DNA from: Alphaproteobacteria bacterium
Lineage (GTDB): Bacteria; Pseudomonadota; Alphaproteobacteria; UBA8366; GCA-2717185
Direction: 5' to 3'
Assembly (NCBI GenBank): GCA_040905865.1
Contig: JBBDQU010000056.1
Location: 1 to 64,000 of the forward strand
DNA length: 64,000 nt
Under the pieces are notes generated by a model. That model saw only the letters and a program-made list of their open reading frames with translations. It had not been told where the DNA came from and ran no database searches. The translations under genes were made by a program, and so were the position numbers. Shown here one piece after another: positions 3,389 to 5,709 of this stretch. The first letter of the stretch is position 1. Each line of letters starts with the position of its first letter.

Positions 3389-3844
3389 TCAGCCGAGACT
3401 TTTTATATCCGCCATGACCTGATCGGGATGTTCGGCCGGTGTTACCTTGGCGTATGCTTTAACAATGTTCCCGTCCGGTCCGATCAGCACCGACACCCGG
3501 GTCGCCTTTTCGGCGTCGGTTCCGGCCGCCGCGCCATAGGCGACGGAGGCGGATTTCCCGGTGTCGCTCAACAGGTCGTATGGAAAGTCGAACTTTTCCC
3601 GGAACGCGCGGTTCGCGTCCGGTGAATCGAAGCTGACGCCCAGAATGACGGCATTGCAGTCGTTGAATTCCTGGATTCGATCACGGAACCCGTTGCCTTC
3701 AACAGTTCAGCCGGGTGTGTCGGCTTTTGGATACCACCACAGAAGCACGTATTTGCCGGCAAATTTGTCCAGCGATACTGCGGCTCCGTCCTGGTTGGTC
3801 ATGGTAAAGGCAGGCGCCTTTGCCCCTTCCGCTATCATCGGCAT
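3389..3844 (-). CDS. Selenocysteine-containing peroxiredoxin (PrxQ/BCP type), in-frame TGA = Sec46
   Basis: Read through one TGA, this is a complete 151-residue peroxiredoxin, the usual length of PrxQ/BCP proteins. From ATG at 3844 it runs MPMIAEGAKAPAFTM, then LLWWYPKADTPG, the TGA at 3709-3707, and TVEGNGFRDRIQEF. The TGA sits exactly where the peroxidatic cysteine of the TPGCT motif belongs, so it would encode selenocysteine 46. No frameshift or other stop occurs on either side and the downstream half keeps conserved family sequence (VILGVSFDSPD, FPYDLLSDTGK, TRVSVLIGPDGNI). The PrxQ resolving cysteine five residues later is Asn51; another Cys is at 63. It should reduce peroxides in the cytosol, recycled by thioredoxin or another thiol. 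Ordinary gene callers would report only the last 60 residues. Sec-containing bacterial peroxiredoxins are known. Confidence 0.85.
3673..3691 (-). promoter_or_regulatory. Candidate bacterial SECIS stem-loop
   Basis: Fifteen bases after the in-frame TGA, the minus strand reads GGGTTC (3691-3686), loop CGTGATC (3685-3679), GAATCC (3678-3673). The arms form six base pairs including one G-U. The loop begins 21 bases from the TGA and has G as its second base. This agrees with the known geometry of bacterial SECIS elements (short apical loop with an early G, roughly 16-37 bases from the UGA), which recruit SelB-GTP-Sec-tRNA. Competing small hairpins such as GTTG-AAGG-CAAC also exist, so the exact fold is uncertain. 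Confidence 0.6.
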
Positions 3845-3988
3845 GGTTTCCCCTTCTGGTTACGTATGGTGACTTGCGGGGACATCGTACATCACACGCC
3901 TTGCCGGTAAAAGGTCTGGAAAGCGATGCACGGGAGACATACACTTCCGGCATCATTCCGACACGACCTATCGCCGGAGCAGAACGCC

Positions 3989-4537
3989 ATGAAACGATCG
4001 AGATCCCTGAAGCTGGCCCTGATGGGCGCAAGCGCCCTGAGTCTGGCAGCCTGCGACAATCCGGAAAACGTGGCGGTTTTCGAAAGTGTCGAGCAATGCC
4101 AGAACGAGGCCGGGTTCGACCGCGAGACCTGCGAGGCCAATTTCAAACAGGCGGCGGCGGAGCATATCCGCGTGGCGCCCAAATACACATCCGCCGCCGA
4201 TTGCGAGGCGGATTTCGGCGCGGCGCAATGCGAGATCGCCCCGCAGACGACGCAGGATGGCGGGTCCGTCTTCATGCCGCTGATGATGGGCTACATGATG
4301 GGCAGCATGTTGGCCAACAACTCGCGTGTCGCCACACAGCCGCTGTACCGGTCGAACGACGACCGCGGCAGCTTCCGCACGGGCGACAACCAGAAGGTTG
4401 CCGGGAAGACCGGCCTCACTCAGGTACCGGCGCAGGTGGCCAAGGCGCCGACCACGAAGACCACCACGATCCGCCGCAACGGTTTCGGCGCGTCCGCCCG
4501 CGCGTTCACGGGAGGGTCCCGCAGCTTCGGCGGCTGA
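3989..4537 (+). CDS. YgiB-like DUF1190 lipoprotein
   Basis: A 182-residue protein of the YgiB/DUF1190 family. I use ATG 3989 because it gives a clean lipoprotein signal: basic MKRSRSLK, hydrophobic core, and lipobox L-A-A-C with Cys at about residue 22 followed by Asp, which in enterobacteria favours inner-membrane retention. The mature part has several cysteines (QCQNEAGFDRETCEANF; DCEADFGAAQCE), a Met/Gly-rich stretch (MMGYMMGSM) and a basic Ser/Gly-rich tail, all typical. Function is unknown. It precedes the YgiC-like ATP-grasp gene by 11 bases, the same pairing as in E. coli, so the two are surely co-transcribed. Confidence 0.88.
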   Translation: MKRSRSLKLALMGASALSLAACDNPENVAVFESVEQCQNEAGFDRETCEANFKQAAAEHIRVAPKYTSAADCEADFGAAQCEIAPQTTQDGGSVFMPLMMGYMMGSMLANNSRVATQPLYRSNDDRGSFRTGDNQKVAGKTGLTQVPAQVAKAPTTKTTTIRRNGFGASARAFTGGSRSFGG

Positions 4538-4548
4538 CGGCCTTTTCC

Positions 4549-5709
4549 ATGCAGCGGATATCCATTACGGAACGGGACGACTGGAAGTCGCAGGCCGAGG
4601 CCCTCGGCTTCAGTTTCCACACCATGTACGGCGCCGCCTACTGGGACGAAACCGCCTGCTACCGGTTCAGCCTGAAACAGATCGAAGACGATATCGAAGA
4701 CCCCAGCGGGGAAATCGAAAAGATGTGCTTCCAGGTGGTCGAGCGCGCCATCGCAAGCGAAGAGATCATGGCGAAGCTGGCGATTCCCGAGGGTTTCCGG
4801 GACTATGTCCGCAACAGCTGGCTGAACCGGGAACGCAACCTGTATGGACGGCTGGACCTGTCCTATGGCGGCAACGGACCGGCGAAACTTCTGGAATACA
4901 ACGCCGACACGCCGACCTCCCTGTATGAAAGCGCCGCCTTTCAGTGGCTCTGGCTGGAACAGGCCATGGCGCGCGATATCGTCCCCACCGGGTGCGACCA
5001 GTACAATTCCATCCACGAACGCCTGATCGAGGCCTTCAGCAATTTCGGTATCGAAGGGCGTCTGCATCTGGCGTCCTGCAGGGACACCCCCGAAGACGAA
5101 GGCACCGTCCGCTATATCGAGGAATGCGCGATGCAGGCGGGGCTGGAAACGGCGTTCCTGCACATGGAAGACATCGGCATCGACGCCGCCGGCCATTTCA
5201 CGGACCTGGACGACATGGGCATCGCCACCCTGTTCAAGCTGTACCCGTGGGAATGGATCATGACCGAGGATTTCGGCCAATCCGTCCCCGGCAGCGGCGT
5301 CACCTTCATCGAACCGGCCTGGAAGGCAATCCTGGCGAACAAGGGCCTGCTGCCGCTGTTGTGGGAGATGTTCGAAGGACATCCGAACCTGCTGCCCGCC
5401 TTTTTCGCGGACGATCCGCGCGCCGGCAGTCTGGAAGGCGGCTATGTGCGCAAGCCGTTGTTTTCCCGCGAGGGCGGCAATATCGAAATGGTCCGGCCCG
5501 GCACGGAAACATTGACCGTCGACGGACCCTATGGCGACGAGGGATTCATTGTGCAGGCCCTGCATCCGCTCCCGGTTTTCGAGGGAAATCATACCGTCAT
5601 CGGGTCATGGCTGGTCGCCAGCCAGCCCTGCGGAATCGGCATCCGGGAAGACGATTCGCCGATAACCAGGGACAGCTCGCGCTTCCTGCCGCATGTGATC
5701 CGGGACTGA
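4549..5709 (+). CDS. YgiC/glutathionylspermidine synthase-like ATP-grasp protein
   Basis: A 386-residue cytosolic protein matching the glutathionylspermidine synthase-like (GSP_synth) family at its usual length. The N-terminal YWDETACYRFS segment, LLEYNADTPTSLYESA, LYPWEWIMTEDFG, ILANKGLLPLLW and the C-terminal VRKPLFSREGGNI are hallmark segments; the last two supply ATP-grasp residues. Unlike E. coli GspSA there is no amidase domain. The family ligates amines to carboxyl groups with ATP, but the true substrate of the YgiC/YjfC branch is unsettled. The start at 4549 follows the ygiB-like stop by 11 bases and gives the conserved N-terminus MQRISITERDDW. Confidence 0.9.
   Translation: MQRISITERDDWKSQAEALGFSFHTMYGAAYWDETACYRFSLKQIEDDIEDPSGEIEKMCFQVVERAIASEEIMAKLAIPEGFRDYVRNSWLNRERNLYGRLDLSYGGNGPAKLLEYNADTPTSLYESAAFQWLWLEQAMARDIVPTGCDQYNSIHERLIEAFSNFGIEGRLHLASCRDTPEDEGTVRYIEECAMQAGLETAFLHMEDIGIDAAGHFTDLDDMGIATLFKLYPWEWIMTEDFGQSVPGSGVTFIEPAWKAILANKGLLPLLWEMFEGHPNLLPAFFADDPRAGSLEGGYVRKPLFSREGGNIEMVRPGTETLTVDGPYGDEGFIVQALHPLPVFEGNHTVIGSWLVASQPCGIGIREDDSPITRDSSRFLPHVIRD

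Follow-up and report, generated by a model that had tools for sequence, protein, structure and literature searches.

A PrxQ-like peroxiredoxin gene with a conserved in-frame TGA, probably read as selenocysteine, in Alphaproteobacteria

Introduction

Does a single in-frame TGA at the catalytic position of an otherwise unbroken peroxiredoxin gene mark a broken gene or a selenocysteine (Sec) codon? The question is raised by a locus of an alphaproteobacterial genome, in a contig stretch of 64,000 nucleotides that is referred to here as the window. Sec-containing peroxiredoxins (Sec-Prx) of the TxxU type (COG1225) were the second most abundant of the previously known selenoprotein families in the Sargasso Sea, with 43 genes (PMC1088965), and 253 members were found in the GOS data (PMC2398784). 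The first-pass annotation of the locus, which proposed a hidden selenoprotein, had stated that bacterial peroxiredoxins with Sec at the peroxidatic site exist, and they do form an abundant family (PMC1088965, PMC2398784, PMC13188914).

An intact frame around one TGA

The gene and its signals lie on the minus strand:

3389..3844, minus strand: coding sequence of the putative Sec-containing PrxQ-like peroxiredoxin, 151 residues (Pfam AhpC-TSA 2e-29; AlphaFold2 pLDDT 97.1)
3707..3709, minus strand: in-frame TGA, codon 46, at the peroxidatic position, with a selenocysteine reading (TGA in 18/18 and 64/64 orthologues)
3391-3389, minus strand: terminal TGA stop of the Sec-Prx coding sequence, from the frame translation
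3850..3857, minus strand: AGAAGGGG, probable ribosome-binding site of the Sec-Prx gene, inferred from sequence

The frame (3844-3389) is composed of an ATG, 150 further codons and the terminal TGA, and besides the TGA at 3709-3707 it holds no internal stop or frameshift, which bears out the description of a lone TGA in an intact 151-codon PrxQ/BCP frame at the Cys of TPGCT. Codon 46 stands in the context YPKADTPG-U-TVEGNGFRDR, at the position of the peroxidatic Cys in PxxxTPGC. The AhpC-TSA match of the read-through product (residues 7-129) spans the TGA, so that family sequence and frame continue on both flanks, as had been claimed, and chance is excluded as the source of the frame. Without recoding, the longest downstream in-frame ORF is a TTG-started one of 60 aa (3571-3389); since only this tail would be called, the first 91 residues would be lost, the same number that the first-pass annotation had given for standard annotation.

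Conservation of the TGA across genomes

Close orthologues are present in 18 of 59 genomes of the family and order, the window's own included, and all 18 have TGA at the same codon; in genome G011 the orthologue has a TAG as well, close to its C-terminal end. Scanning named genomes returned 80 loci, 64 of which are orthologues of the window's clade, with TGA at codon 46 in every one and Cys in none. Among the 80 named loci, TGC or TGT stands at this site in four genes only, all of them distant PrxQ members of Spirochaetes and Acidobacteria. The alternation of TGA with TGC or TGT that had been suggested as a check on homologues is thus absent among close orthologues: the Sec form is fixed across the clade, Cys occurs only in distant PrxQ genes, and on the tree the distribution of the two is explained by one change.

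Most named loci come from metagenome-assembled genomes labelled Alphaproteobacteria, Rhodospirillaceae or Rhodospirillales, and a few are labelled Gammaproteobacteria, Myxococcota, Acidobacteriota or others. The Sec-Prx contigs of L106 (Flavobacteriales TMED123) and L107 (Phycisphaerae PL23b) are near-identical to, or nested among, alphaproteobacterial ones and may be misbinned. A search of plasmids gave distant matches only, all below 60% identity.

On both flanks of the TGA, dN is well below dS in relatives with estimable dS (against L102, 0.19/0.45 on the 5' side and 0.08/0.81 on the 3' side), dS being saturated for several pairs. The frame decay expected of a dying gene is not seen among the orthologues, which keep the TGA at exactly codon 46.

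Decoding machinery in the same genome

In the genome that contains the window (4.37 Mb; completeness 100), selA lies directly upstream of selB (461 bits). A tRNA-Sec with anticodon TCA (68.3 bits) is present as well, and so is a selD gene whose product, a fusion protein with an NAD/FAD oxidoreductase domain, is of the Cys rather than the Sec form (G000:C48:20116-21033, L047). All four genes that the first-pass annotation had wished to see searched for are therefore present, and with selB and tRNA-Sec in place the absence that would have spoken against its reading did not occur. Across 59 genomes (the window's own and relatives), with selB called above a cut-off, the Sec-Prx gene is found in 18 of 20 selB genomes and in 0 of 39 without selB (Fisher p 2.9e-13); the two remaining genomes have selB and lack the gene.

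In a 2006 survey, formate dehydrogenase was the sole selenoprotein found in Alphaproteobacteria (PMC1794560). The formate dehydrogenase hits here, with the best match to its alpha subunit at G000:C84:33239-35290, have no internal stop, and among the hits found the use of Sec in this genome is not tied to a Sec-type FdhA.

A SECIS hairpin whose loop is shared with an unrelated family

Immediately 3' of the TGA lies a conserved element within the coding sequence:

3673..3691, minus strand: SECIS apical hairpin GGGUUC-CGUGAUC-GAAUCC, starting 15 nt after the TGA (from the synonymous freeze, pairing and a CCGUG shared with SelW-like genes)
3703-3698 with 3667-3662, minus strand: outer stem GUUGAA/UUCAAC, supported in clade A only
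3662..3709, minus strand: whole TGA and SECIS region (covariance model R1)

Synonymous sites are frozen in codons +6 to +11, counted from the TGA (GGG TTC CGT GAT CGA ATC): across 35 Sec genes the same-codon fraction is 0.961 there and 0.439 over the remaining codons; for the Cys homologues (n=10) the fractions are 0.489 at these codons and 0.538 elsewhere. The six-pair apical stem GGGUUC/GAAUCC is paired in 27 of 27 distinct sequences, its changes being G-U to G-C and U-A to U-G, with no two-sided change among the 27. The outer stem does show two-sided changes, at three pairs, but roughly half of the sequences, clade B ones for the most part, do not pair there (61.7% of cells paired). Folded by itself, the window's copy of the element has an unremarkable energy (z -0.2 to -0.9), so the case for the element rests on comparison. 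It has the form known from bacterial selenoprotein genes, a hairpin with a loop G just 3' of the UGA. Over the whole genome, R1 gives clear matches to the Sec-Prx gene and its paralogue only (E 2.3e-14 and 1.0e-11; next 0.5), both expected by construction or from close kinship to the training set, and in pattern and covariance searches of the genome for further genes with this SECIS only the two Prx genes rose above chance.

The strongest independent check on the element is a SelW-like gene (Rdx; CxxU, PF10262) of the same genome, which was found by family and not by SECIS search and has an in-frame TGA in EYCAVU (G000:C74:119186-119389, L177). It has the CCGTG loop at a distance from the TGA identical to that of the Prx genes. 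CCGTG stands at offset 23 in 10 of 11 extractable TGA-type SelW genes, and the SelW stem contains a compensated exchange, CUC/GAG to CGC/GCG. The loop common to SelW and Prx genes suggests that the lineage may use one SelB recognition loop.

A fresh pseudogene would likewise show a lone stop in an intact frame, and so would a gene hit by a sequencing or assembly error that turned TGC or TGT into TGA. The same-codon TGA in 18 genomes and 64 named orthologues from many assemblies refutes such an origin, and the purifying selection on both flanks and the frozen synonymous sites on the 3' side run against it as well; its probability is close to nil. Barely more credit can be given to insertion of another amino acid (e.g. 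Trp by a change of code) or to low-level read-through without Sec. The frame would be open whatever residue is placed at the TGA, but this gene and many of its orthologues terminate at a TGA stop, so TGA has not been reassigned genome-wide, and the site is that of the family's catalytic Cys in a genome with selA, selB, selD, tRNA-Sec and a SECIS. Decoding of the TGA as selenocysteine, the central proposal of the first-pass annotation, is thus strongly supported by machinery, conserved TGA and SECIS, and the protein would be expected to contain Sec.

Fold, active site and proposed reaction

The AlphaFold2 model (mean pLDDT 97.1) has BCP/PrxQ proteins and the 1-Cys peroxiredoxin AhpE as its nearest PDB structures, and BCP/PrxQ are the closest relatives in both structure and sequence. 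The peroxidatic motif P-X3-T/S-X2-C(U) and the role of the conserved Arg are defined in PMC5719442; besides the Pfam match to PF00578 (2e-29), the protein has P39, T43, U46 and R116, two of which are encoded as follows:

3716..3718, minus strand: codon of Thr43, the catalytic Thr of PxxxTxxU, kept in 64/64 orthologues
3497..3499, minus strand: codon of Arg116, the active-site Arg that peroxiredoxins conserve, invariant in the two Sec clades

The TPGU motif, the BCP-type match and the SECIS place the gene, as a well-supported additional example, in the known Sec-Prx kind of the marine surveys, a kind marked by TxxU, COG1225 type and a bacterial SECIS. Compared by description, it resembles the marine-metagenome Sec-Prx (COG1225/PF00578) in its PrxQ/BCP fold, TxxU, SECIS just 3' of the TGA and occurrence in marine bacteria, and it differs from them in being placed in genomes with full decoding machinery. 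The Sec-Prx of Eubacterium acidaminophilum, as far as it is described where Soehling 2001 is cited (PMC8533274), likewise has Sec at the peroxidatic position.

Fold and peroxidatic-site residues are shared with the Cys-containing PrxQ/BCP proteins, such as E. coli Bcp, Xanthomonas PrxQ (5iiz) and Sulfolobus Bcp1 (3drn). These have Cys at the catalytic position and many, but not all, have a resolving Cys at +5 or about +36, whereas Cys stands at +5 in 0/64 and at +36 in 2/64 of the Sec orthologues. As had been noted, the residue at Sec+5 (residue 51) is Asn. A canonical Cys PrxQ with STPGCTQEAC is encoded in the same genome (C73:72773-73201).

Recycling had been assigned to Cys63 or to an external thiol. 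The first option fails: Cys63 is confined to the window's copy (1 of 18 orthologues), which rules it out as the resolving residue, no second Cys is conserved, and 31 of 64 orthologues lack any Cys apart from the Sec position. The second option stands, and an external thiol would be the likely reductant. Reduction of oxidised selenocysteine by thiols is general among Sec peroxidases (PMC8533274), and AhpE of Mycobacterium tuberculosis (1-Cys; 1xvw, 5id2), which has one redox centre and is among the nearest structures, can serve as a mechanistic model for external-thiol recycling only; it is a Cys enzyme of a separate subfamily. The identity of the thiol cannot be read from family membership, because the score against the thioredoxin-dependent thiol peroxidase model NF006960 is below its cut-off (105.1 bits against 140). 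The other BCP/PrxQ models of NCBIfam also match below their curated cut-offs, and the match to peroxi_PrxU (NF040737) is weak (42 bits against 270).

Two divergent neighbours were seen by eye, a small lipoprotein-like gene (window 3926-4537, plus strand) and a glutathionylspermidine synthase-like one in the downstream part of ORF 3820-5709 (plus strand), and related neighbours recur in about 8-10 Sec-Prx loci. A comparison of neighbourhoods found no conserved neighbour in most loci that would hint at the reductant, and to link these genes to the reducing thiol would be only a guess.

A true Sec protein of this fold might also work mainly outside peroxide reduction, as a selenol for thiol-disulfide exchange or persulfide handling, for example. 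The missing resolving Cys, scores that fall short of the equivalog cut-offs for known thiol peroxidases, and a sister Sec clade without the catalytic Thr (see below) would all suit such a role, but the window's clade keeps the peroxidatic-site Thr (64/64), Pro and Arg, and its nearest structures are the BCP/PrxQ and AhpE peroxidases, which makes a non-peroxidase function improbable, though less so than the two readings discarded above. We therefore favour, with high confidence, a one-selenol PrxQ/BCP-type peroxidase in which UGA46 is read as Sec through SelB and a SECIS inside the coding sequence, and which is recycled by an external thiol. In this scheme, Sec-tRNA-Sec and SelB would decode UGA46 under the direction of the hairpin 15 nt downstream. 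Sec46, predicted to lie at the N-terminal end of helix 44-55 beside Thr43, Pro39 and Arg116, would attack the hydroperoxide and become a selenenic acid. Because a resolving Cys is absent, an external thiol (glutathione/glutaredoxin or thioredoxin) would be needed to restore the selenol, via a mixed selenenylsulfide.

A sister clade without the catalytic threonine

The genome holds a second Sec PrxQ-fold gene, 45% identical to the window's (G000:C50:8097-8540; L050:2483-2929), with its own TGA, the same SECIS and the same predicted fold (AlphaFold2 pLDDT 95.3). Relatives carry members of its clade as well (L110, L116, L135, L142-L158), and in L110, L116 and L135 the sister gene adjoins the first Sec-Prx in tandem. 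The clade has full support in the tree once L155, which a motif filter had mislabelled, is counted in. All copies seen have PxxxGxxU, that is, Gly for the catalytic Thr, with Sec, Pro and Arg kept, and no Cys form of the clade was found. In a class-wide search with the sister protein, 11 of 385 genomes (own included) gave matches at E <= 1e-30, each carrying a TGA. Five of the extracted matches have the motif RAFGxxU, and some others, at 39-49% identity, resemble the first clade.

According to a review, Ser can stand in for the catalytic Thr, whereas residues that lack the OH group cannot (PMC8533274), and no PxxxGxxU-type entry appears among the 119 families and subfamilies of prokaryotic selenoproteins listed in another review (PMC13188914). 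The Thr-less clade may be hidden in the metagenome Sec-Prx sets. Whether the two genes form a Sec-only PrxQ-fold pair, with the Gly-clade as a separate, unlisted selenoprotein subfamily whose altered chemistry the selenol enables, is a question on which we are evenly divided.

Implications

In many uncultured marine Alphaproteobacteria, the Sec-Prx gene is liable to be annotated as broken or truncated. The lineage offers an unusually clean SECIS, with one loop at one distance common to the two PrxQ-fold selenoprotein genes and the SelW-like one, which is of an unrelated family. Unlike the picture drawn by the 2006 survey, Sec in this genome would serve two PrxQ-fold proteins and one SelW-like protein, and with a sister clade that lacks the peroxiredoxin Thr, the idea that a selenol can do without this residue becomes open to test.
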